From an uncultured Pelagibacteraceae bacterium (GTDB lineage Bacteria > Pseudomonadota > Alphaproteobacteria > Pelagibacterales > Pelagibacteraceae), in the NCBI GenBank assembly GCA_902552345.1, contig CACDGO010000001.1, forward strand, positions 1-64,000: a stretch of 64,000 nt of DNA, read 5' to 3'. The position numbers were made by a program, and so were the translations under genes. The notes under the pieces were generated by a model. The model was given only the letters and a program-made list of their open reading frames with translations. It had not been told where the DNA came from and did not search any database. This document shows, piece after piece, positions 13,324-60,979 of the stretch; position 1 is the first letter of the stretch, and every line of letters begins with the position of its first letter.

Positions 13324-14889
13324 TTAAAATACTAATAAAAAGATAATTACAATACCAAAAAAACTAAGAAGTATATTATTTCTAAAGTTTTTAAATTTCA
13401 TTTGCTCAATTTCTAAATTTTTATTAGTTCCAACAGATAAATTAAGTTTTCCCTCTGAAACCAATTTTAGAGCATAATCAGCTCTATCAATAAATTGTGG
13501 TAAATCTGGTATTCTTTTTATTATTTCAGATGACGTATTGATTGCTTTATCAATGGATGATTTTGGACTTTTAATATTTTTTAGCCAATCTTCAAGCACT
13601 GGTCTTGAAACCTCCCAAATATTTGTTTCTGGGTAAAGTTTTCTGGCGACACCTTCAACTACAACCATGGTTTTTTGTAGTAATAATAATGGCGGTTGAG
13701 TTGCCATATTAAATTTTTCAGTAATTTCAAATAATTGAGCGAGTAAGTTCCCGCCAGAAATATCTTTTATGGATTGTCCAAAAATTGGCTCTCCTACGGA
13801 TCTAAGAGCCTGTGCAAACTCCTCTTTTGAGGCATCTTGAGGCACGAGACCAGCTTGAAAATGTACCTCAGCTACTTTTACATAATCTCTTTTTATAAAT
13901 CCATAAAGTATTTCCGCTAAAAATCTTCTATTATTTTTATCAAGCCGTCCCATTATGCCAAAGTCAACAGGAATGATGTTTCCCTTTTTGTCAACGAATA
14001 AATTTCCTTGATGCATATCCCCGTGGAAAAAACCATCTCTAACCGCTTGTGTTAAAAAAGATTGTATTAAATTTTCTGCAAGATTTTTAAGGTCAACCCC
14101 CATTTCTTTTAATTTTTGATGTTCTCTAATTGAAGTTCCGTTAACCTTGTCTAAAGTTAATATTTTTTTAGTTGTGTAGTTCCAATAAATTGTAGGGACA
14201 TTAAAACCAACATCTTTTTTTGTATTTTCAAAAAGTTCATTTGCAGCAGCTGCTTCAAATCTTAAATCCATTTCTATGTTCGTAATTTCTCTTAGAAGGT
14301 GAACCACTTCAACTAATTTAAGCCGTTTAGCTTTAGAAATTGTATTCTCTATAATATAAGCAAACAACATCAAGGCGTCTAATTCTTCATTAAACAGTTT
14401 CTCAATATCAGGTCTTAATATTTTTATAGCAACTTCTTGTTCTCGATTTTCTATTTTAATTTTTGCTAGGTGGACTTGGGCAATTGAAGCAGCAGCAATT
14501 GGCTCACTTAGTTCACTTATATCTTTAAAATAATTTTCTCCAATTTCTTTTTTTATAATCTTTTTGGCATCATGTAATTCAAAAGCTGGAACTTTGTCTT
14601 GTAGTTTTTCTAAATCATTTGCAAGTTCCTCACCAATTATATCTGGTCTAGTTGCAAGAAACTGCCCTAACTTAATAAATGTTGTTCCCATACCTTGTAA
14701 AGCTAAACAGAGCTTTTCTCCAGGAGATTTCTTTTCCTCTATAGATTTTGCAGGCGAACCTAAAGACATGAAGTTGAAGAATAAATTTAAGCCCGATGGA
14801 ATCTTATGAATTTCGTTAATGGTACTAATAGCCCCGGAGGTAGATAATCTTCTTGCTAGGTAGAATAATTTAATAATTCTTTTTAACAT
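13324..14889 (-). CDS. ubiB: Ubiquinone biosynthesis protein UbiB (ABC1 kinase family)
   Basis: UbiB is an atypical protein-kinase-like ATPase needed for ubiquinone synthesis. The 521-aa protein has the family-specific KLGQFLATRPD motif, the Ala-rich loop AAASIAQVH, the catalytic-loop-like FFHGDMHQGNLFV and the VDFGIMG metal motif. A hydrophobic C-terminal segment (about residues 500-520) would anchor it in the membrane, as known for the family. It directly follows ubiE without any gap, and the two functions belong to the same pathway. Confidence 0.95.
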   Translation of the reverse strand: MLKRIIKLFYLARRLSTSGAISTINEIHKIPSGLNLFFNFMSLGSPAKSIEEKKSPGEKLCLALQGMGTTFIKLGQFLATRPDIIGEELANDLEKLQDKVPAFELHDAKKIIKKEIGENYFKDISELSEPIAAASIAQVHLAKIKIENREQEVAIKILRPDIEKLFNEELDALMLFAYIIENTISKAKRLKLVEVVHLLREITNIEMDLRFEAAAANELFENTKKDVGFNVPTIYWNYTTKKILTLDKVNGTSIREHQKLKEMGVDLKNLAENLIQSFLTQAVRDGFFHGDMHQGNLFVDKKGNIIPVDFGIMGRLDKNNRRFLAEILYGFIKRDYVKVAEVHFQAGLVPQDASKEEFAQALRSVGEPIFGQSIKDISGGNLLAQLFEITEKFNMATQPPLLLLQKTMVVVEGVARKLYPETNIWEVSRPVLEDWLKNIKSPKSSIDKAINTSSEIIKRIPDLPQFIDRADYALKLVSEGKLNLSVGTNKNLEIEQMKFKNFRNNILLSFFGIVIIFLLVF

Positions 14890-50712: not shown

Positions 50713-51404
50713 CTGGAAGTTGATGAGTTATATTTAAATAAATTTACATTTAATGAACGATCCATTTGTAATACATATCTATTGTCTGCACTTGAAGAAT
50801 TGTTACACTTAGGACCGCTCCCACCACCTCCATAATGATTAGATGTATTTGATTTTGAGCAAATCATTATGAAAGCATCTTGGTTGTTTCCATTATTATC
50901 CATAACCGTAAAATGATTTGTGCCAGGATCAATTATAGCATTTTTTGATAAAAACATCCTCGAATTCATCCAGTGCCAAGTATCTCCACTCCATTGAAAT
51001 TGTCCTGAATTTTCTTTTACCCAATTAGAGTAATCAATTGTTTCCAAACAACATGGACCCATCTTATAATGATTTAAATAACTCTTTCCACCAGTGTTTC
51101 CATCGTTTCTTCTTGTCCAACCAGGTGCAGGAACCTTCATTTGAGTGGCGTATTCTTCTTGTGTCATATGCCATAGTTCCATATTCGTGTAAAAACCGAT
51201 TACAATGATAGGATATTTACCAGAATTTACTTCATCTTTTCTATCTTCAATGTATTGCACAAGTCTATTCACCTCTTTTTTTACCTCTCTTTCAGTTAAC
51301 CATTGATCTACTTTTGGATAACCAAATACTGCTAAAATGGCAAAAATTGCTAAAACAACTAATAATTCTATGATTGAAAATGCTTTATTGCTTTGCATCA
51401 ACAT
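50694..51404 (-). CDS. FimT/FimU (GspH)-like minor pilin
   Basis: 236-aa prepilin with cleavage motif A/FSIIELLVVLAIFAIL and the GspH/FimT-like second helix (EREVKKEVNRLVQYIEDRKDEV). The globular part is long for the family and holds CC (GPCCLE) and a Gly-rich stretch (YGGGGSGPKC). M3 (51398) gives a more standard short leader than M1 (51404). It overlaps pilT by 20 bases and is the first minor pilin of the leftward operon. Confidence 0.78.
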   Translation of the reverse strand: MLMQSNKAFSIIELLVVLAIFAILAVFGYPKVDQWLTEREVKKEVNRLVQYIEDRKDEVNSGKYPIIVIGFYTNMELWHMTQEEYATQMKVPAPGWTRRNDGNTGGKSYLNHYKMGPCCLETIDYSNWVKENSGQFQWSGDTWHWMNSRMFLSKNAIIDPGTNHFTVMDNNGNNQDAFIMICSKSNTSNHYGGGGSGPKCNNSSSADNRYVLQMDRSLNVNLFKYNSSTSRWIKTR

Positions 51405-52395
51405 TACTTATTTTGCCTGATTGCACTAAGTTTTCAATTGATTTTTCCATAGAGATCATTCCATCACGTGTTCCTGTTTGCATAACACTTGGTATTTGAT
51501 GAATTTTTTTCTCACGAATTAAATTTTTAACTGGAGAATTACAAACCATTATTTCAAAAGCTCCAACTCTTCCTTTACCATCAGCTGTTTTAAATAATTT
51601 TTGTGTAATTACCATTCTAAGAGAGTCTGCTAGTTGAGCTTGGATTTGAGCCTGTTGTTCGGACGGGAACACATCTATAATTCTGTTAATTGTATTAGGT
51701 GCGCCACTAGTGTGCAAAGTACCAAAAACTAAATGACCTGTTTCTGCAGCTGTTAGAGCCATGCTTATAGTTTCAATATCTCTTAGCTCTCCAACTAAAA
51801 TAACATCTGGATCTTCTCTTAACGCACTTTTTAAAGCTGTAGAAAAACTCTCCGTCTGTTTACCAACTTCTCTGTGAGAGATAATACTTTTTTTATCTTT
51901 ATGAATAAACTCAACCGGATCTTCAATTGTGATAATATTGGCTTGTCTTGTTTCATTAATTTGATTTATAATTGATGCAAGAGTAGTGGATTTACCTGAG
52001 CCAGTAGGACCTGTAACCAGCACTAAGCCTTTATGCATGTCTACAATACTGTACATTACAGGAGGCAAATTAAGGCTTTCCATATTCAAAATAGTTGTTT
52101 CTACTTTACGTAAGACTACAGCAGGCCCTTGTAGTGTCTGATAAAAATTTGCTCTAAACCTCATATTTTCCAACATAAAACCACTATCTAACTCGTTTTT
52201 TTGCTTGAAATGTTCAACATCGGATTTAGAGCAGTTTTTCTCCAAAAGGTTAGTAATATCCTCATTTTTAACCATTTCTCCCTCTAAAATGATTATTTCT
52301 CCCATTAATCTGTACGAGAAAGGGCAATTAGCTCTTAAGTGAAAATCCGACACTTTTGGGTTGTCTTTTACAACATTTACTATTTTACCGATCAT
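51385..52395 (-). CDS. pilT: Type IV pilus retraction ATPase PilT
   Basis: PilT is the hexameric ATPase that powers pilus retraction, used for twitching and DNA uptake. The 336-aa protein has Walker A TGPTGSGKSTT, the Asp box region IEDPVEFIH, Walker B DPDVILVGELRD, the His box TGHLVFGTLHT and the retraction-specific motif NLIREKKIHQI near the end. Length fits PilT or PilU; PilT is preferred as it is the only copy seen. It is the first gene of the leftward pilus operon, behind promoter 52493-52521. Confidence 0.93.
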   Translation of the reverse strand: MIGKIVNVVKDNPKVSDFHLRANCPFSYRLMGEIIILEGEMVKNEDITNLLEKNCSKSDVEHFKQKNELDSGFMLENMRFRANFYQTLQGPAVVLRKVETTILNMESLNLPPVMYSIVDMHKGLVLVTGPTGSGKSTTLASIINQINETRQANIITIEDPVEFIHKDKKSIISHREVGKQTESFSTALKSALREDPDVILVGELRDIETISMALTAAETGHLVFGTLHTSGAPNTINRIIDVFPSEQQAQIQAQLADSLRMVITQKLFKTADGKGRVGAFEIMVCNSPVKNLIREKKIHQIPSVMQTGTRDGMISMEKSIENLVQSGKISNVDAKQ

Positions 52396-52452: not shown

Positions 52453-52490
52453 TTGTGTTAGAATAATTAATTTTAAATATTCTAACACAA
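52453..52490. repeat. Inverted pair of the 13-bp motif on the pilT promoter
   Basis: TTGTGTTAGAATA (52453-52465) and TATTCTAACACAA (52478-52490) form a perfect 13-bp inverted repeat separated by 12 bases. The right arm begins just downstream of the leftward -10 box, so it covers the expected transcript start of the pilT operon. Confidence 0.8.
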
Positions 52491-52492
52491 AA

Positions 52493-52521
52493 TTTATAAA
52501 CTATTTATCTTGGTTTTTCAA
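52493..52521 (-). promoter_or_regulatory. Leftward pilT operon promoter
   Basis: On the minus strand TTGAAA (52516-52521), 17-base spacer, TATAAA (52493-52498). The expected start lies inside the repeat copy at 52478-52490, giving a leader of about 90 bases before pilT. Confidence 0.6.
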
Positions 52522-52595
52522 TATTAAAAAAATGTTGATTTTACTTGTTTTTTGAGTATTTTAAATTTTTCCCAGGTATAATTTAGAATAAATTA

Positions 52596-52774
52596 TATTC
52601 TAACACAAGAATTTTATCTTCTAACACAATTATTTTATATTCTAACACAATTTTATAGTATAAATCATGATTTGTAACACAAAATAAACGCTTATAATAT
52701 AACAATTCTATTAGTACTATACTTATAACACAAAATAATTGACAAATTTGTGTTAGAATTGTATTATAACACAA
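52596..52774. repeat. Operator-like array of TAACACAA motifs
   Basis: Forward 13-mers start at 52596, 52617, 52638, 52670 (degenerate first half), 52721 (degenerate first half) and 52762, with one reverse copy at 52748-52760. Start-to-start distances are 21, 21, 32, 51 and 41 bases, near 2, 2, 3, 5 and 4 helical turns, so a bound protein would sit on one DNA face. A partial inverted copy, TTAGAATA, is at 52583-52590. Confidence 0.8.
52739..52767 (+). promoter_or_regulatory. Rightward pilMN operon promoter
   Basis: TTGACA (52739-52744), 17-base spacer, TATTAT (52762-52767). The reverse motif copy (52748-52760) fills the spacer and the last forward copy (52762-52774) covers the -10 box to the start site, the position expected of repressor operators. 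The leader to the ATG at 52797 would be about 20 bases. Confidence 0.65.
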
Positions 52775-52796: not shown

Positions 52797-54911
52797 ATGA
52801 GTAACATTATTTCAACTAAAGATGGAAGATTGCACATCTACGTAAGGCAAGATAAATACAAGGGAAAGTTGAAATCAGAAAATTGGGTAGGTAGAACCTT
52901 CTATAAAGGTAAACAGAAAGTTGTATCCTCAGGAACAACTGACTTAGAAGAAGCAAAAAAAATTTTAGAACAATGGTATGACGATTTAATTTCAGGAAAA
53001 TTAGATGTCAACGAAAATTCTGAAAAAGATTTAAATAATAATATTAATTTAGAACAAGCTGTTGAAACTTCAAACACTAACGACGATCAAGTTTCAAATA
53101 TAAAACAAGAAATAACAAAAGAAAATCAATTACAAAACACCACTAGTTCTAAAATTCCAGAAGAAAAGAAGAAAAAATTATTCAATTTTGATTTATCTTC
53201 ATTAAAAAATTTATCATCTTTAAAAGAAAAATTATCTTTTAAAAAAGATAATTCAGAAAATAAGAATAATAAAAAAGATAAAAACAATTTATCAAAATTT
53301 AAAAAATTATTTTCAGAAAAAATTAGTAAAGCGAATGTGGCAGGAGAGGAAATAGCTGGAATAGATATAGGAGAGGACTCTATAAAGATTGCTCAGCTAA
53401 GCAAAAAAGAGAATGATTGGATATTAGAAAAAATTTCTTTGCGATTACTTGATAAAAACAAAACTGCAGATGGCGTAATTAACTCTAAAGACTATGTGTC
53501 TGAAGAATTGAAATTAGGGATGGCAAACGCAAAAGTTTCAACGACTAATGTTGCTATTTCAATACCAGTGACAAGCGCAATTATAAGAGTAGTAACTAGC
53601 CCTTTAATGTCTGACGATGAACTTCAAAAAGCTATAGAAACAGATTCTCTTTGGGAAAATTTAGTACAACTCACAGATGACTTAAACGAATATTCTATAT
53701 TCCATCAAGTAATTAGCAGAAATAACAAAACAAACACTATGGAAATACTTTTCGTAGCTTCAAAACTAAGTGATGTAAATGCTTATTCTTCAATTGTAAA
53801 AAAGGCTGGTTTAAATCCAGTTATATTGGACGTAAAATGCTTCACTTTAAAAAATGCTTTTGATAATTCATTTAAAATTGAAAATAAAGCTAACAATGCC
53901 CTTTTAGAAATAGGATCTGAGGATAATTATTTAATTATCGTTCATGATAATATTCCAATCATTACAGATATATTTTTAAGACCAAACGAGAAGGATCTTC
54001 TAGGCCAGTTCGACGGAAATATTCAAAATACAGACACTGAAAGTGTTGTGAGGAGATATTGCATGCAGCTTAAGCAAGCGTTAAGTGATTATGAAAGTAA
54101 ATACTCATCAAAAATTAATAATATAAAGATTGTAAGCTCTCTAGGAAATATCGAGGAACTAATTCCTTTATTTAAAAAAAACTTATTAAATACTGGCCTT
54201 CAAGTTTTTGATCCCTTAAATGAATTACAAATACCAGCTTACAATCAAGAAAAAACTAATTTAAGAAACAGATCCATCTACACCTCAGTTCTTGGTTTAG
54301 CTTATAGAAAATTAGATGTGTTCGGATATTACAAATTTGTTACTGCAGTTAAGAATATAAACCTTTTACCTAATCGAGAGGCACTGAAACGACAAAGCAA
54401 ATTAAAATTCCTTTCAGGCTTTGCAATGAAAGGGTTAGTAGGTGGAATAGCCGCTTTATACTTATTCTTAATTGGATTTTCTTTTTTTCAAATTAGCTCC
54501 AATAAAGGTAAACTTGCTAATGAAAATAATATTCTACAAGAATTTAATCTTGTTAGTGCTGAACATAAAAAATTATCGAAGACAGTAAGTGATATGCAAA
54601 AGGCTCTTAAGCTAGGTGGCATGGTAAACTCTAATCAAACCGTTTCATACAGAGCATTAGCGCAGATTACAAGAAGCGTTCCTCAAAGAGTTCAATTTAC
54701 AGATCTTAATTATAATGGGAACAATCAGGTAATCATTACCGGCTTAGCCTTCTCTGATCAAGATATCATCAATTTTATAGCAAATTTAAATGGTAAAGAT
54801 TTAATCGATCAAGCCTCTTTAAAAGCGATGAATGTACCTAAAGGTAAAAATGATTTACAATCGGCAAATAATAAAAAAGGATTTACGATTTTATGTAAAT
54901 TAAAAATATGA
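52797..54911 (+). CDS. pilMN: PilM-PilN fusion with N-terminal integrase-type DNA-binding-like domain
   Basis: 704-aa protein in three parts. Residues 1-70 form a small beta-beta-beta-alpha unit (HIYVRQDKY, NWVGRTFYKGKQKVVSSGTT, DLEEAKKILEQWYDDL) that looks like the arm-DNA-binding domain of tyrosine recombinases. A Lys/Asn-rich linker follows (about 75-185). PilM (about 187-510) is the actin-like ring protein (AGIDIGEDSIKIAQL). PilN (about 515-704) has the PilM-binding INLLP at 521-525, a membrane helix at about 544-565 and a ferredoxin-like end. PilM and PilN are normally separate. Start options are GTG 52785 and ATG 52797; I prefer the ATG. It overlaps pilO by 4 bases. Confidence 0.85.
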   Translation: MSNIISTKDGRLHIYVRQDKYKGKLKSENWVGRTFYKGKQKVVSSGTTDLEEAKKILEQWYDDLISGKLDVNENSEKDLNNNINLEQAVETSNTNDDQVSNIKQEITKENQLQNTTSSKIPEEKKKKLFNFDLSSLKNLSSLKEKLSFKKDNSENKNNKKDKNNLSKFKKLFSEKISKANVAGEEIAGIDIGEDSIKIAQLSKKENDWILEKISLRLLDKNKTADGVINSKDYVSEELKLGMANAKVSTTNVAISIPVTSAIIRVVTSPLMSDDELQKAIETDSLWENLVQLTDDLNEYSIFHQVISRNNKTNTMEILFVASKLSDVNAYSSIVKKAGLNPVILDVKCFTLKNAFDNSFKIENKANNALLEIGSEDNYLIIVHDNIPIITDIFLRPNEKDLLGQFDGNIQNTDTESVVRRYCMQLKQALSDYESKYSSKINNIKIVSSLGNIEELIPLFKKNLLNTGLQVFDPLNELQIPAYNQEKTNLRNRSIYTSVLGLAYRKLDVFGYYKFVTAVKNINLLPNREALKRQSKLKFLSGFAMKGLVGGIAALYLFLIGFSFFQISSNKGKLANENNILQEFNLVSAEHKKLSKTVSDMQKALKLGGMVNSNQTVSYRALAQITRSVPQRVQFTDLNYNGNNQVIITGLAFSDQDIINFIANLNGKDLIDQASLKAMNVPKGKNDLQSANNKKGFTILCKLKI

Positions 54912-55546
54912 ACTTAAGTGAATTAAAAAATATAGATCTAAAAAATATCGATGTTAAAGATTTAGTTGAAAAATTAAAAAATAACGAACTTTTAAAAGAT
55001 AAAAAGTTCCTTACTAAATTTGGAATTTATTTCGGTTCAATAATGTTTTTTTTTATTATTTACTACGCTTTTATTAATCCAAAGGTTGAAGCTCAAAAAC
55101 AAAGAATTAATATCATGTTGCAAAACGAACAACAAACTGCTGGTTTTAAACAAGAAATTATAGGATTAAAAGCTACTATAGAAAAACTCCAACCTGAATA
55201 TGATAAGAAAAGTAAATTATTTCATAGTCAAAAAGAAGTTGAAGGTCTTTACCAAAATATAAGTGACTTTGCTTCGATCAATAGTTTAAATATTATAAAC
55301 CTTAATAAAGAGAACCCAGTCCCAGTTTCTCCAGGAAAAAATGCAAAAAAAGTAGCTTATTTTAAAATACCAGTATCGTACGAAATTACTGGAAATTATC
55401 TCGGATATTTAAAATTCAGAAGAGCACTAGCAAAATCAAATAAAGTTATCAATTTTGATAGGGAGCAGATAACAGTTGTTGAGGGTGCTGGAATTAAATC
55501 AGTAGGAACATTATCAATTGTAGGATTACCAGATGAATATAAGTAA
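54908..55546 (+). CDS. pilO: Type IV pilus alignment protein PilO
   Basis: PilO pairs with PilN in the periplasm and links the inner platform to PilP and the secretin. The 212-aa product has a short cytoplasmic part with the repeated LKNIDLKNIDVKDL, a membrane helix at about 42-60, a coiled coil (residues 65-115) and a C-terminal ferredoxin-like domain (FKIPVSYEITGNYLGYLKFRRAL, a classic PilO segment). It overlaps pilMN by 4 bases and pilP by 14. Confidence 0.9.
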   Translation: MNLSELKNIDLKNIDVKDLVEKLKNNELLKDKKFLTKFGIYFGSIMFFFIIYYAFINPKVEAQKQRINIMLQNEQQTAGFKQEIIGLKATIEKLQPEYDKKSKLFHSQKEVEGLYQNISDFASINSLNIINLNKENPVPVSPGKNAKKVAYFKIPVSYEITGNYLGYLKFRRALAKSNKVINFDREQITVVEGAGIKSVGTLSIVGLPDEYK

Positions 55547-55949
55547 AAAAATTTTATTTGTTATATTTTCATTATTGCTTTTCACAAATCCAATCATTGC
55601 TGAAGATAAAAAAGATCTTATTGATGAAGAGCTTCCTGCAATAAATCCGTTTCTTGGTGGTGGATCAGCTGGTGGTTCTAGTGGAGACGGTTTAGGCCGA
55701 GACGGGGTATCTCAATCCAATTCGGTATCTCTCAAGAATATGAAATTAAACGGCGTGGTAATAGGAGAAAGTAAAAGATTCGCAATTTTTAGTTTTCCAG
55801 ATGGAAGAACAGTAAGATATGAGGAAGATACAATAATATCAAATGATTTTATGATTTTAGATATATTTCCAGATCGTATCTTTATTAAGATGAACGAAGT
55901 AGAATACTCGCTTGATTTAAAAAATAACCTAGTAAAGGCTGAAGGATGA
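55533..55949 (+). CDS. pilP: Type IV pilus protein PilP
   Basis: 138-aa periplasmic protein with a signal peptide (1-23, ending IIAED), a flexible Gly/Ser-rich stretch (about 44-58) and a small beta-sandwich (MKLNGVVIGESKRFAIFSF, TVRYEEDTI, ILDIFPDRIFIKM) of the PilP/GspC homology-region type. PilP connects PilN/PilO with the secretin. It lacks the lipobox Cys seen in many PilP proteins. It overlaps the secretin gene by 4 bases. Confidence 0.8.
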   Translation: MNISKKILFVIFSLLLFTNPIIAEDKKDLIDEELPAINPFLGGGSAGGSSGDGLGRDGVSQSNSVSLKNMKLNGVVIGESKRFAIFSFPDGRTVRYEEDTIISNDFMILDIFPDRIFIKMNEVEYSLDLKNNLVKAEG

Positions 55950-57499
55950 CATTAAAATTAGTAAAAATAATATCATTATTTATAATTTTGGCATTAACTT
56001 CTAACTGCGCTTCAACAAAAAAAAAATCAGTGCACGGAGAGGAACCTTTAATAGACCCATCAAAAGTAATTGTTGATGGAACAAAAGAAATGCAAGAGAA
56101 AGTAAAATATGGTCCAAAACCTTATGAAACTGAGTTTGATCCCACAGCTAATAAAAGAAAAACAATTACGACTGAGCAAGTAAGAAACTATGTAACAATC
56201 TCTAATGAATATGAAAATTTAAAACAAACTGTAAGCTTTAATTTTAATGGCGTTGATTTTAGAGATGCAATGGACTCTCTTGCTGATATAGGTGGTATTA
56301 ATATTATAGTAGGCGAGGAAGTAAGCGGTACAGTTACCGCTAAACTTCAGGATGTTGGTTGGGATGTTGCTTTTCAAACTCTATTAGATATGAAAACTTT
56401 AGGAGCTGATATTGATGTAGCAAGAGGTATCATTCGTGTACATACTCCTGAAAAGCTAACTGCTCAAGAAACTTTAAAGTCTGCAAGAGCTGAAGTACTT
56501 AAAAAGAAAATTCAATTAGAAGATACTGTTGAACCAATTTTAGCTGATATATTTAGATTATATTACATTAGTCCATCAGAGGCTAAAACAACTTTAGAAA
56601 ATCTTTTTAAATCACAAGGTCCTGAAGGTACAAGTACCCTTAGCACAATACAAATCACAGAGGAGAGCATGACAAGATCTATAATTGTTAGAGGACGAAA
56701 ACCTGACTTAGATGTCATTGACGCAGTTTTAAAAGAAATTGATATTAAAACACAACAAGTCTTGATTGAGGCGTTTATTGTGACTGCTACTTCAGATTTC
56801 CAAAAAGCTTTAGGTACAAGAATTGGAGCAATGACTGAAAAAGGAGTTTCTGGAGAAAAAGGATCAGAAATTATTTCAGGTACCATCGGTGGAGCAGCTA
56901 CAGTTGGCTCAGGAATTTCATTAGGATCCGCTGCTGGTACTGTTACAAATAATTCTATTACTGCAGCAACTAGTGGTATAGGAATTATTAAAACATTAGG
57001 TACCGCTGCTCTAAAACTTGAAATTGAAGCTTTACAATCTCTTGGAAAAACTAAAATTATTTCAAGTCCAAGTGTTTTTACACTTAACAACCAAGAAGCT
57101 AAGATAACTCAGGGAACACAAATAGCTTATACTGTTACAGCTGATGGTACGACATCTACAGAATTTAAAGATGCTGCTTTATCTTTAACAGCAACTCCAA
57201 GCATAATAGGTGATGGAAATGTTCTACTAGATATTTTAGTTAATAATGACACTCCGGTCGAAGTACCAGGATCTGACGAGCCAGGGATCACTAAGAGAGA
57301 AATAGATACAAAGCTATTAGTAAGTGACGGTGATATAGTAGTTATTGGAGGTATTAAGGTTAATACTGATACAAGCACAAATTCAAAAACACCAGGATTA
57401 GGAAACGTTCCAGTAGTTGGAAACTTGTTTAAAGGAAGAAACAGCCAAAATAAGTTAGAAGAAATGTTAATATTCCTAGCTCCACGTGTTATAAATTAA
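55946..57499 (+). CDS. pilQ: Type IV pilus secretin (PilQ/MshL type)
   Basis: Outer-membrane channel through which the pilus exits. The 517-aa protein has a lipoprotein-like signal (LTSNCAST, though Asn at -1 is unusual). An N0/STN domain follows at about 95-165 (FNGVDFRDAMDSLADIGGINIIV), then an N1 domain (FRLYYISPSEAKTTLENLF) and the secretin core (QVLIEAFIVTA, the Gly-rich gate, PVEVPGSDEPGITKREIDTKLLV, GLGNVPVVGNLF, EEMLIFLAPRVI). It is shorter than PilQ with AMIN domains, closer to MshL. Confidence 0.92.
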   Translation: MTLKLVKIISLFIILALTSNCASTKKKSVHGEEPLIDPSKVIVDGTKEMQEKVKYGPKPYETEFDPTANKRKTITTEQVRNYVTISNEYENLKQTVSFNFNGVDFRDAMDSLADIGGINIIVGEEVSGTVTAKLQDVGWDVAFQTLLDMKTLGADIDVARGIIRVHTPEKLTAQETLKSARAEVLKKKIQLEDTVEPILADIFRLYYISPSEAKTTLENLFKSQGPEGTSTLSTIQITEESMTRSIIVRGRKPDLDVIDAVLKEIDIKTQQVLIEAFIVTATSDFQKALGTRIGAMTEKGVSGEKGSEIISGTIGGAATVGSGISLGSAAGTVTNNSITAATSGIGIIKTLGTAALKLEIEALQSLGKTKIISSPSVFTLNNQEAKITQGTQIAYTVTADGTTSTEFKDAALSLTATPSIIGDGNVLLDILVNNDTPVEVPGSDEPGITKREIDTKLLVSDGDIVVIGGIKVNTDTSTNSKTPGLGNVPVVGNLFKGRNSQNKLEEMLIFLAPRVIN

Positions 57500-57501
57500 A
57501 C

Positions 57502-59220
57502 ATGATTAGATTAGATACTACAAGTGAACAAAGTATTCTTAATATGCTTAGAGAGCATAATGCTCTTAATGGTCAGCAAATAAAACAAATTGAAAGTTTG
57601 AGCAAAGAGTCGGGAAAGTCTCAAATCGAAACTGCTTTTGAATTGAATATCACAAATGATACAAAAGTAGCTGAACTTTTATCGGAAAGTTTTTCAATTC
57701 CATTAATCAAACTTGATGATGTCAAAGTAGACAATAATTTAAAAAAATTTACTGAAATAAGATTCTTAAAAGAAAATTTGATTATACCTTTTGCAGTTGA
57801 ATCTAAAACAATTAAAGTTGCTATAGCTGATGCATCAAAGTTTGGTTTGATTAAAAATATCGAAAGTTTAACAAAATTAGAGCCAGAACTTTATGCTGCA
57901 TCTATAAAACAAATTTCAGATTTTATAGCAAGACTTGAGCAAGGCGCACCTGTCAAAGCTAAAAATCAAAAAATAGAACAAGTTAAAAAGAAACAAGCTA
58001 ATGTCCCTCTAGAAGTTGAGTCTGAAGTAATAGCTTTTGTTGATAAAATTCTAAATGAAGCCATTAGATTAGAAACTAGTGATATTCATATAGAACCTTT
58101 TAAAGATAGTGCGCATGTAAGATTTAGAATTGATGGTGTTTTAAGAGTTATGGAACAGTTTAGTGGTTTTTTAAATAAAGATCCTTTAAATTACAACTCA
58201 GTAGTTACTAGAATAAAAATTCTTAGCAAATTAGATATTGCTGAGAGAAGAATTCCTCAAGATGGAGGTTCCACTTTTAAATACGGAGATAAAGAAATGG
58301 ATCTTCGTATATCAATAATGCCAACTAAAAATAATGAGAGAATTGTAATGCGTCTTTTAAATAAAGAAGCAGGTGACAAATCTTTAGACAAACTGGGATT
58401 TGCAGATCAAGATTTAAAAGTTTTAAACGAGGCTATCCATTCTCCTCAAGGAATGGTGCTTGTTACCGGACCAACCGGAAGTGGAAAAACTACTACACTT
58501 TACAGTATTTTAAAAACAATTAACAAACCCTCAATGAATATTCTTACTGCAGAAGATCCAGTGGAATATGAACTTGAAGGTGTTGGCCAAGTACAGGTAA
58601 GAGATGATATTGGGTATTCTTTTGAAACAGCGCTGAGATCATTTTTACGTCAAGACCCTGAAGTTATTTTGGTTGGAGAGATAAGAGATAAAGCTACGGT
58701 TGATATTGCTCTAAAGGCAGCACTAACAGGTCACTTAGTTTTTAGTACGCTTCACACTAATGATGCTCCAAGCACAATAACAAGATTACAGAATATGGGA
58801 ACTCCGGATTATTTAATTTCTGCCGCCTGCACACTAGTTATGGCTCAAAGACTTGCTAGAAAAACTTGCCAAGAATGCAGAGTTCCTGATGAAAGATTAA
58901 ATCCAAAAGTACTTTCTCAAATAGGGTTTACTGTTGAAGAGGCCTCAAGAGTAAGACCAGTTTATGGTAAAGGATGCAAAGCTTGTGCGAGCGGAGACTC
59001 TGGAGCTGGAAATGGTTATAAAGGCAGAATGGGTATCTATGAGATTTTAAAAGTTTCAAAAAATATTAAAGACGCCATACTTAGAAAAGCAACTACACTA
59101 GAATTAAAAGAAGTAGCTAAGAAGGACAACTTTAGAACTATGCAGGACATGGGTAGAGAATTAATTTTGACTGGAGATTTATCTTTTAGCGAATATCAAA
59201 GAGTACTAAGCTTGGAATAG
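57502..59220 (+). CDS. pilB: Type IV pilus extension ATPase PilB
   Basis: PilB powers pilus polymerisation. The 572-aa protein has a GspE N-terminal domain (about 1-150), an N2 domain with EVIAFVDKILNEAIRLETSDIHIEPF, Walker A GPTGSGKTTTLYSIL, Asp box TAEDPVEYELEG, Walker B QDPEVILVGEIRD, His box GHLVFSTLHTNDA and a C-terminal metal-binding module with CQEC and CKAC. It starts 2 bases after pilQ and is followed by pilC after one base. Confidence 0.95.
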   Translation: MIRLDTTSEQSILNMLREHNALNGQQIKQIESLSKESGKSQIETAFELNITNDTKVAELLSESFSIPLIKLDDVKVDNNLKKFTEIRFLKENLIIPFAVESKTIKVAIADASKFGLIKNIESLTKLEPELYAASIKQISDFIARLEQGAPVKAKNQKIEQVKKKQANVPLEVESEVIAFVDKILNEAIRLETSDIHIEPFKDSAHVRFRIDGVLRVMEQFSGFLNKDPLNYNSVVTRIKILSKLDIAERRIPQDGGSTFKYGDKEMDLRISIMPTKNNERIVMRLLNKEAGDKSLDKLGFADQDLKVLNEAIHSPQGMVLVTGPTGSGKTTTLYSILKTINKPSMNILTAEDPVEYELEGVGQVQVRDDIGYSFETALRSFLRQDPEVILVGEIRDKATVDIALKAALTGHLVFSTLHTNDAPSTITRLQNMGTPDYLISAACTLVMAQRLARKTCQECRVPDERLNPKVLSQIGFTVEEASRVRPVYGKGCKACASGDSGAGNGYKGRMGIYEILKVSKNIKDAILRKATTLELKEVAKKDNFRTMQDMGRELILTGDLSFSEYQRVLSLE

Positions 59221-59221
59221 T

Positions 59222-60454
59222 ATGCTCAATTTTCAATATAAAGGAATTTCACAAGGAAAATATGTTGAGGGTGAAATAGAGGCCTTAAACAATTCTGAGG
59301 CCGCATACAAATTAAAAGAGCAAAAAGTTATTATAACTAAGCTCATCGAAGCAAAAAAGAAGAAAGTAGAAAAGGAAAAGAAAAAATCAGCTGGCTTCAG
59401 TTTTGGCAAAGGGGTCAAGGCTAGAGATATATTAATATTTGCTAAACAATTTTCAACAATGTTACGTTCTGGTTTGCCTGTTTTAAACGCATTAAATTTG
59501 CTCATTGATCAAACCTCTTCACCTAACATGAAAGCAATAATTGAAAAAATTAAAAAGGACTTAGAAGCTGGTAATGCTTTATCTAAATGTTTTGAAAATC
59601 ACCCAAAAACTTTTGATACAGTTACTGTAAACTTAATCAAAGCGGGTGAAGCAAGTGGAAAACTTGATGTATTCTTAGAGAGAATTGTAATGTCTCTTGA
59701 AAAAAGAGAAAAGATTAAATCCCAAATTAAGAGTGCTTTGTTTTATCCAGGAGTTCTTTTAACTGTTGCAGTAACAGTTACAATTTTTATGTTAATTAAA
59801 GTAGTTCCCATTTTTACAGAAATGTATGAAGGGATGGGTGTAGAGATACCAGGTGCAACAGCAGTAATTATGAGTGCAAGTGCTTTTTTGAGTGGCTCAG
59901 GTGGATTTTTAAGTTTAATATTTTTTATAGCTTTTGTAATTGGTTTTAATATCGCTGTAAAAAAAAATTATGGATTTAGAAAAGCTTGGCACAATTTTAT
60001 TTTTAAAATCCCTTTATTTGGTGATCTGATAAAAAAATCTTTATTAGCTAGAATTTCATTAGTTATGGGAAACTTAAATCAGGCTGGCGTTGATATACTT
60101 GAGAGTTTAGATATTGCAAAATCTGTGAGCACTAACACTGTAGTGACTGAATCATTGGAAAATATAAAAAAAGGAGTTTTCTCTGGAGAAACTCTTACTG
60201 CTTTATTCGCAAAAGAAAAGATTTTCCCTCCAACTTTTAGTCAATTAATTTCAGTTGGTGAGCAAACAGGTAGTTTGGACTCAATGTTTGCTTCAGTTGC
60301 AAAATATTATGAAGAGGAGTTTGATACTGCTGTAAGTAATTTATCTAGTCTAATTGAGCCCATAATGATCGCTTTTATGGGCCTTTTAATCGGTGGGTTA
60401 ATGCTTGCTTTATACTCTCCAATATTCAATGTAGGCGCAATAATGGGTCAATAA
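59222..60454 (+). CDS. pilC: Type IV pilus inner-membrane platform protein PilC
   Basis: PilC (GspF family) couples the ATPases to pilin in the inner membrane. The 410-aa protein has two homologous halves, each with FAKQFSTMLRSGLPVLNALNLL-like and LGRISLVMGNLNQAGVDILESL-like segments (seen as LARISLVMG here), EAGNALSKCF, ASGKLDVFLERI and the end SLIEPIMIAFMGLLIGGLMLALYSPIF, with three to four membrane helices. It is the last machinery gene before the pilins. Confidence 0.95.
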   Translation: MLNFQYKGISQGKYVEGEIEALNNSEAAYKLKEQKVIITKLIEAKKKKVEKEKKKSAGFSFGKGVKARDILIFAKQFSTMLRSGLPVLNALNLLIDQTSSPNMKAIIEKIKKDLEAGNALSKCFENHPKTFDTVTVNLIKAGEASGKLDVFLERIVMSLEKREKIKSQIKSALFYPGVLLTVAVTVTIFMLIKVVPIFTEMYEGMGVEIPGATAVIMSASAFLSGSGGFLSLIFFIAFVIGFNIAVKKNYGFRKAWHNFIFKIPLFGDLIKKSLLARISLVMGNLNQAGVDILESLDIAKSVSTNTVVTESLENIKKGVFSGETLTALFAKEKIFPPTFSQLISVGEQTGSLDSMFASVAKYYEEEFDTAVSNLSSLIEPIMIAFMGLLIGGLMLALYSPIFNVGAIMGQ

Positions 60455-60517: not shown

Positions 60518-60979
60518 ATGAACAAAGGTTTCACTTTAATCGAACTATTAGTTGTTGTTGCAATTATCGGTATTCTAGCCGCGGTTGGAGTAACAGCATA
60601 TTCAGGTTACACTCAGTCAGCGAATTTAAATGCTACTAAATCAATGGCATCTAATGCAGTAAAAATAATTTCAGCAGAGTCAAAACAGTGTGAATTAGAC
60701 AAAAATAATCACGTACCATTTGGAATTGCTAATAAAACATGTGCCAATCTTACTGTTGCGGATATAGTAGCTGAGCTTAATAAAACTAACAGAAATCCTC
60801 ATGGCACAGGTCCTTTTGTTTCAACGGCTCCAACACAAGGACAAATTCAAATTTCAAAAACTTCAGTAAACGCATGTGCAGCAAAGAAAAGTGACTCAGA
60901 GTGTCCAGCAGCAAACGTAAAAACTAGTGATGCTGAAAATATAACAACCACTATTGATACCACTGGTTTCTCACTTTAA
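60518..60979 (+). CDS. pilA: Type IV pilin (probable major pilin)
   Basis: 153-aa prepilin with the short leader MNKG, cleavage motif G/FTLIELLVVV, the conserved Glu at +5, and the helix ending GVTAYSGYTQSA. The globular part has four Cys, allowing disulphide loops (Cys near 55-70 and CAAKKSDSEC). It lies 63 bases after pilC and has its own near-consensus promoter, the strongest in the island, which makes it the best candidate for the major subunit. The ATG is fixed by the leader. Confidence 0.88.
   Translation: MNKGFTLIELLVVVAIIGILAAVGVTAYSGYTQSANLNATKSMASNAVKIISAESKQCELDKNNHVPFGIANKTCANLTVADIVAELNKTNRNPHGTGPFVSTAPTQGQIQISKTSVNACAAKKSDSECPAANVKTSDAENITTTIDTTGFSL

Follow-up and report, generated by a model that had tools for sequence, protein, structure and literature searches.

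A SAR11 pilus assembly protein carries an integrase-like arm domain and may bind a phased array of sites over its own promoter

In the PilS/PilR two-component system, the state of the pilus feeds back on the pilin genes. ToxR and CadC, membrane-bound one-component regulators, carry winged-helix domains and do not belong to an envelope machine, and AP2-domain transcription factors, which are eukaryotic, act in gene control with no link to a pilus machine. The closest described case of control is that of the prophage KplE1 integrase, which represses its own gene, the attachment region overlapping its promoter (PMC2951348). We describe a pilus locus of SAR11 bacteria at which PilM, a membrane-anchored assembly protein of the pilus, probably uses a captured integrase arm domain to bind, and probably to repress, the promoter of its own gene.

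The stretch of DNA analysed, hereafter the window, is 64,000 nucleotides long and comes from an uncultured Pelagibacteraceae bacterium. Between positions 52453 and 52774 (322 bp) it carries nine exact copies of the 8-mer TAACACAA, seven forward and two reverse, and our recount agrees with the array as originally predicted. The forward copies are spaced by 118, 21, 21, 32, 51 and 41 bp; the last five distances had been reported before and hold, with the 118-bp interval preceding them. Taken alone, the seven forward sites of the window are helically phased (p = 0.005 against random positions). Over the whole window TAACACAA occurs 12 times against 3.87 expected, a count of at least 12 being reached in 0 of 100 shuffles, and the remaining three exact copies each stand single, at 14047, 19872 and 31710. 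The bare 8-mer numbers 51 copies in the 997,704-bp assembly, against 56 for a reversed control pattern, and the 13-mer TATTCTAACACAA has four exact copies there, every one of them within the array, which holds three more at one mismatch; the unusual features are the clustering and the longer site, not the frequency of the bare 8-mer. A whole-genome scan for the motif had been put forward as a check of the original prediction; in this assembly the exact 13-mer is confined to the array, and no cluster of TAACACAA was found besides 52453–52774. Elsewhere in the window, a lone CTCCAACACAA (PWM score 15.0) lies at 60828–60838, in a pilin-like gene of the rightward cluster.

Sites collected from relatives whose PilM carries the N-terminal domain described below extend leftward, with C/T, T and C at positions -3 to -1, which lay outside the search word used to collect them. 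The full 11-mer site is [CT]TCTAACACAA, and it is present at six of the nine positions in the window array, the copies at 52672, 52723 and 52764 being without a C directly before TAACACAA. All six full sites read TTCTAACACAA (PWM 16.8): one on the reverse strand at 52453–52463, downstream of the leftward start site; one on the forward strand at 52480–52490, covering the presumed leftward start site; three on the forward strand at 52598–52608, 52619–52629 and 52640–52650; and one on the reverse strand at 52748–52758, within the pilM -35/-10 spacer. The weaker sites are all on the forward strand: TTGTAACACAA at 52672–52682 (PWM 11.5), and TTATAACACAA both at 52723–52733, upstream of the pilM -35, and at 52764–52774, covering the pilM -10 and start site (PWM 11.2 each).

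The pilM promoter itself, TTGACA-17-TATTAT (52739–52767, forward strand), matches the consensus at 11 of 12 positions, and the rightward overlap claimed for it is confirmed, one copy filling the -35/-10 spacer and another covering the -10 and start. On the reverse strand, the letters and spacing of the presumed leftward promoter, TTGAAA-17-TATAAA (52493–52521), were checked, and its letters are similar in most rows of the class A alignment; a consensus promoter scan did not pick it up, and the same scan gave 5 promoter-like sites against 5.1 in shuffles, that is, no excess. Of the 12 rows in the class A alignment, 10 have an intact TTGACA and one has TTGACT, L049 not being alignable. The window and 10 further aligned class A rows have a site inside the -35/-10 spacer and another across the -10, and at the sequence level arm-type-like sites stand over the gene's own promoter. 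The end of the last site precedes the pilM ATG by a median of 23 bp (55 loci); two of the distances, 230 and 374 bp, belong to loci at which no ATG could be located upstream. Under the sites of most class B loci, and of L010, we found no convincing promoter. Promoter overlap, as read from the DNA, is established for class A only; as the class B promoter is unclear, repression would apply to class B only by extension.

The pilM gene (52797–54911, forward strand) encodes a PilM-PilN fusion of 704 aa, with Pfam PilM_2 (PF11104) at residues 188–386 (3.8e-23) and PilN (PF05137) at residues 621–701 (4.5e-09). Both domains score above the cut-off and pilus ATPase genes adjoin, which places the protein in a type IV pilus. 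A PilT-like ATPase gene (51385–52395, reverse strand; T2SSE 1e-48) leads the leftward operon, whose genes encode this ATPase, pilin-like proteins, a PilX-like protein and a PilY1-like protein. The remainder of the rightward operon comprises the ORFs of 54908–60454 on the forward strand, among them a gene for a PilB-like ATPase (57502–59220, forward strand; T2SSE and MshEN); the names PilO, PilP, PilQ and PilC for further products are our own reading, assigned by gene order and sequence. Relatives of this PilM come from records of Pelagibacteraceae or Pelagibacterales (SAR11), the nearest being AG-895-E15, identical (100%) over PilM. The pilus genes are patchy: in the relatives search, one genome alone (G033) of 36 others in the genus has this PilM.

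About 70 N-terminal residues of the protein are absent from ordinary PilM. Residues 1–70 (52797–53006, forward strand) form, by predicted fold, an arm-type DNA-binding-like domain also seen in SAR11 tyrosine recombinases, and in the window PilM no recombinase catalytic domain was found, Pfam giving PilM_2 and PilN only. Residues 71–160 are 78% polar, charged or proline. The most hydrophobic 19-mer of the protein, residues 546–564 (54432–54488, forward strand), is a likely membrane anchor, a membrane-spanning segment as judged by hydropathy only. This layout suggests a DNA-binding head, a loose linker and a PilN part that would hold the protein at the membrane. Class B PilM proteins (e.g. L022, L026 and L127) have an acidic low-complexity stretch of ~55–150 residues ahead of the DNA-binding domain, partly duplicated in L127.

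Across SAR11 genomes, the array comes and goes with this domain. Counting PWM hits of at least 10 within 800 bp upstream of pilM, we found 5–9 sites at 54 of 54 domain-bearing loci and 0 sites at 43 of 43 domain-less loci, all with at least 1400 bp of upstream DNA; because the loci are related, this contrast represents few evolutionary changes and not 97. A single TAACACAA lies ~1 kb upstream at 2 of the 43 domain-less loci. Ten loci with short upstream DNA had been set aside before this count, nine domain-bearing and one domain-less; eight of the nine have 2–8 exact copies of TAACACAA, and just 19 bp of upstream DNA were available for the ninth, while in the domain-less one (L097) the gene is cut by the contig, and the tree groups it with a domain-bearing locus. 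PilM matches had been found in 122 of 397 genomes of the order, some of them remote (22–25% identity) or fragments, and upstream DNA was compared at 111 places: 63 domain-bearing, 44 domain-less and 4 with a domain match alone. Left out were five remote PilMs (22–24% identity) and G077, contig-edge pieces (G381:C29, G357, G394, G376 and G279), and domain-bearing G145, G175 and G223, which lie near contig starts; these last three and G279 do have close pairs of TAACACAA.

One genome (G348) makes the same comparison internally, having two loci, one domain-bearing with the array and one domain-less without it. At the level of genomes, in tables compared by hand, a close TAACACAA pair occurs in 67 of 68 with a domain-bearing PilM against 5 of 329 others, and in the sole exception among the 68 (G342) the contig ends before the array. 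Among the pairs listed, those off the locus (G053, G292, G209, G356, G155 and G108) have no CT before TAACACAA; one further off-locus pair that was counted (G233) falls outside the pairs listed.

The neighbour upstream of pilM matters less than the domain. All 54 domain-bearing loci have the array, with a divergent pilT at 7, a SpoIIE-like gene at 29 and neither at 18, and the 43 domain-less loci all have a divergent pilT and none has the array. Because all three neighbour classes of domain-bearing loci keep it, the array tracks the domain rather than the neighbouring gene, and an array tied to the divergent arrangement is rejected. The original prediction had assigned the array to both divergent pilus operons; it goes instead with the pilM promoter, since 47 of the 54 loci keep it without a divergent pilT. 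The same two operons without the motif, which had been named as counter-evidence, are indeed found, at 43 loci, yet it is precisely there that PilM has no DNA-binding domain. Of all 63 domain-bearing loci, 29 (L053, L056, L022 and others) have the SpoIIE-like phosphatase gene ahead of pilM and in the same orientation.

In a tree of 74 partial PilM sequences, including 30 of the 63 domain-bearing ones, with two loci from another family that have neither domain nor array as the outgroup, the domain-less clade (support 0.608) is nested in domain-bearing lineages with support of 0.948 and 0.967. This nesting makes a joint loss of domain and array probable; the simplest history would be that both were gained once and both lost once. 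In the class A alignment, calculated without L049 and with the window and its near-identical L040, the sites are 91% identical to the window and the DNA between them 60%. Adjacent same-strand spacings fit a period of 10.6 bp (R = 0.81, n = 231, 47 distinct layouts), with 21, 32, 52, 85, 117, 127 and 150 bp recurring; this fit was reached in 0 of 5000 trials of a null in which distances were free, a value that overstates the case because the layouts are related. The class B sites fall into two groups ~127–150 bp apart, some of them far upstream of the start, and those of L010 lie upstream of its best start-proximal region.

The PilM domain is homologous to the N-terminus of SAR11 tyrosine recombinases, with 46–62% identity. 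Two of 397 order genomes (G108 and G243; Phage_integrase matches of 9.7e-08 and 1.3e-07) encode full-length recombinases with the domain, and 397 genomes drawn from the family yielded a third (G774). Each of the three integrase genes adjoins tRNA-Leu(CAA), with a piece of the tRNA on the opposite side. The intergenic stretches of the G108 and G243 integrases, which were chosen after their sites had been noticed, contain six sites with PWM scores of at least 10 against a shuffle mean of 0.08. The commonest integrase-side site is CTCTTACACAA, one letter off the array word, and G108 has two further copies of it farther left. The G774 integrase, examined afterwards as a test, has CTCTTACACAA on the left only, its right-hand sites being degenerate; because the left-hand stretches of all three elements are near-identical, the support from integrase sites, though real, is not threefold. 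At L171, the scan of the stretch covered sites and tRNA pieces. Small mobile elements at tRNA-Leu(CAA) (L117, L118 and L170) carry a tyrosine recombinase beside a serine recombinase and small genes; across three SAR11 genomes these neighbours are near-identical, while the tyrosine recombinases share 67–69% identity.

The predicted model of the domain (mean pLDDT 80) has strands at residues 12–21, 24–36 and 39–44 and a helix at 50–66 (beta-beta-beta-alpha), giving a three-stranded sheet packed on a helix, as in arm-type domains. Among the structural matches listed, the best three are arm-type domains of P4-like integrases (PDB 3rmp, 3ju0 and 3jtz), with VIA-align Z of 5.9, 5.7 and 5.5 and rmsd of 2.2–2.4 over 58–61 residues; all Z values are below 8, and unrelated entries at 5.3 and 5.1 count as tied with the arm-type matches. 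The best Foldseek E was 0.4. Pfam arm-type families gave no match to two PilM domains up to E 10, and a profile search of PDB sequences with the domain returned nothing relevant. Phage records searched for the domain and the integrase gave no match, viral contigs searched with the integrase held no relative, and a class-wide search with the domain profile gave no hit at E 1e-5 among 288 further genomes. A full-length integrase model was discarded at pLDDT 35.8.

Five viral contigs encode a small protein of 116–145 aa with the same domain and no integrase part (loci include L163 4887–5324, L165 1828–2178, L166 4977–5327 and L167 988–1416). On our own reading, it appears to end in a C-terminal membrane helix, and such a protein could compete for the array sites or tie DNA to the membrane.

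We propose, and on the whole consider probable, that the N-terminal domain of PilM is a tyrosine-recombinase arm-type DNA-binding domain captured by a pilus assembly protein, and that a single domain would read a single [CT]TCTAACACAA site. The 5–9 sites at whole helical turns would then place several PilM subunits on one face of the DNA. Direct binding of PilM to the array is, in our judgement, very likely, and residues 1–75 are predicted to bind it in a CTAACACAA-dependent manner. Of the dedicated pilus regulator first envisaged, the phased, dedicated operator is supported, with no other cluster found in the assembly; the separate outside binder probably does not hold, the N-terminal domain of PilM being indicated in its place. 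Because the sites occupy the pilM spacer, the -10 and start site and the presumed leftward start, bound PilM should exclude RNA polymerase, which would amount to negative autoregulation of pilM; that it represses rather than activates seems fairly probable. As PilN has a membrane-spanning segment, binding would occur at the inner membrane, the place of PilM in the pilus platform. PilM sits in a ring-like platform, so that many heads could meet many sites, which is the boldest part of the proposal. That binding reflects how far the machine is assembled is something we raise tentatively. In its fullest form, which is conceivable but would not be our expectation, the platform would regulate its own gene: PilM subunits collected there would offer many copies of the arm domain, to which the phased array would be fitted, only assembled platforms would hold that array tightly, promoter occupancy would report the number of pilus machines, and pilM would be drawn to the membrane at which its product works.

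Several other explanations deserve weight. Chance repetition in AT-rich DNA would fit the commonness of the bare 8-mer, whose 51 genomic copies are no more than the control gives, but it is vanishingly improbable given the clustering, the conservation, 12 copies where 3.87 are expected, and the match with presence and absence of the domain (54 of 54 against 0 of 43), which refutes it. A DNA-uptake word is disfavoured too, the 8-mer not exceeding its control in number. A genome-wide regulon is unsupported, with no other cluster in the window's own genome and with off-locus pairs that, among those listed, have no CT prefix. The array might instead be a functionless attachment-site relic of the mobile element that delivered the domain, and the domain is indeed found in SAR11 tRNA-Leu integrases flanked by similar sites. 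We consider this very improbable: identity to the window is 91% at the sites and 60% in the DNA separating them, the helical register is maintained across 47 layouts, and a relic would not disappear jointly with the domain in the domain-less clade.

The remaining alternatives concern what binds the array and to what effect. A separate regulator encoded elsewhere, acting in trans, would produce an identical array, and the PilM domain would then have another role, such as holding other DNA. Such a regulator would, however, have to appear and vanish with the PilM domain at every locus compared, even within G348, and the similar sites beside integrases with the same domain would be left unexplained; it seems improbable to us. 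Alternatively, PilM may bind the array but activate the operon, or merely tether the locus to the membrane at the platform. The two-group layout of class B and the upstream sites of L010 suit looping or activation equally well, and PilM has a membrane segment, whereas the class A arrangement, in which both the spacer and the -10 are occupied, normally blocks polymerase, and the known parallel (PMC2951348) is repression. We regard activation or tethering as unlikely, though by no means far-fetched.

If autoregulation by PilM is correct, an envelope machine has a structural component that itself occupies the promoter of its own gene, with no separate sensor or regulator, and this in one of the ocean's most abundant bacterial groups, with small genomes and few regulators. 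It would offer a direct route to testing how cells count pilus machines, and a clear case of a mobile-element DNA-binding domain entering cell machinery together with its sites. The domain and array pair is a ready-made test of binding specificity. Binding of both CTCTTACACAA and CTCTAACACAA by the PilM domain and by the N-terminus of the tRNA-Leu integrase alike would lend support to a shared ancestry of protein and site.

Our literature search, which covered listings and the opening lines of abstracts, brought up no account of a DNA-binding domain in PilM or of SAR11 pilus gene control. The arm domain, autoregulation at arm sites and PilM are each of known kinds; we know of no case in which they are combined, with a pilus assembly protein bearing the arm domain and an array present or absent along with it. 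Like IntS of prophage KplE1 (PMC2951348), PilM would be an arm-type domain protein whose sites overlap the promoter of its own gene. Unlike IntS, it lacks a recombinase domain, belongs to the pilus assembly machinery and includes a membrane-spanning PilN part, and its sites form an array of 5–9, not an attachment site. The best structural matches to its predicted domain fold, at modest scores tied with unrelated entries, are the arm domains of P4-like integrases (3rmp, 3ju0 and 3jtz), with which it is only 15–19% identical, whereas theirs, by the entry titles, serve attP recombination. A related sheet-and-helix fold is also seen in AP2 domains, PDB 6sy0 standing at rank 6 of the structural matches. 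As in ToxR and CadC, a cytoplasmic N-terminal DNA-binding part and a membrane segment are joined in one chain, but the PilM domain is predicted to be a sheet with one helix and not a winged helix. Finally, where PilS/PilR relies on a two-component system, SAR11 appears to have the assembly protein hold the DNA directly.
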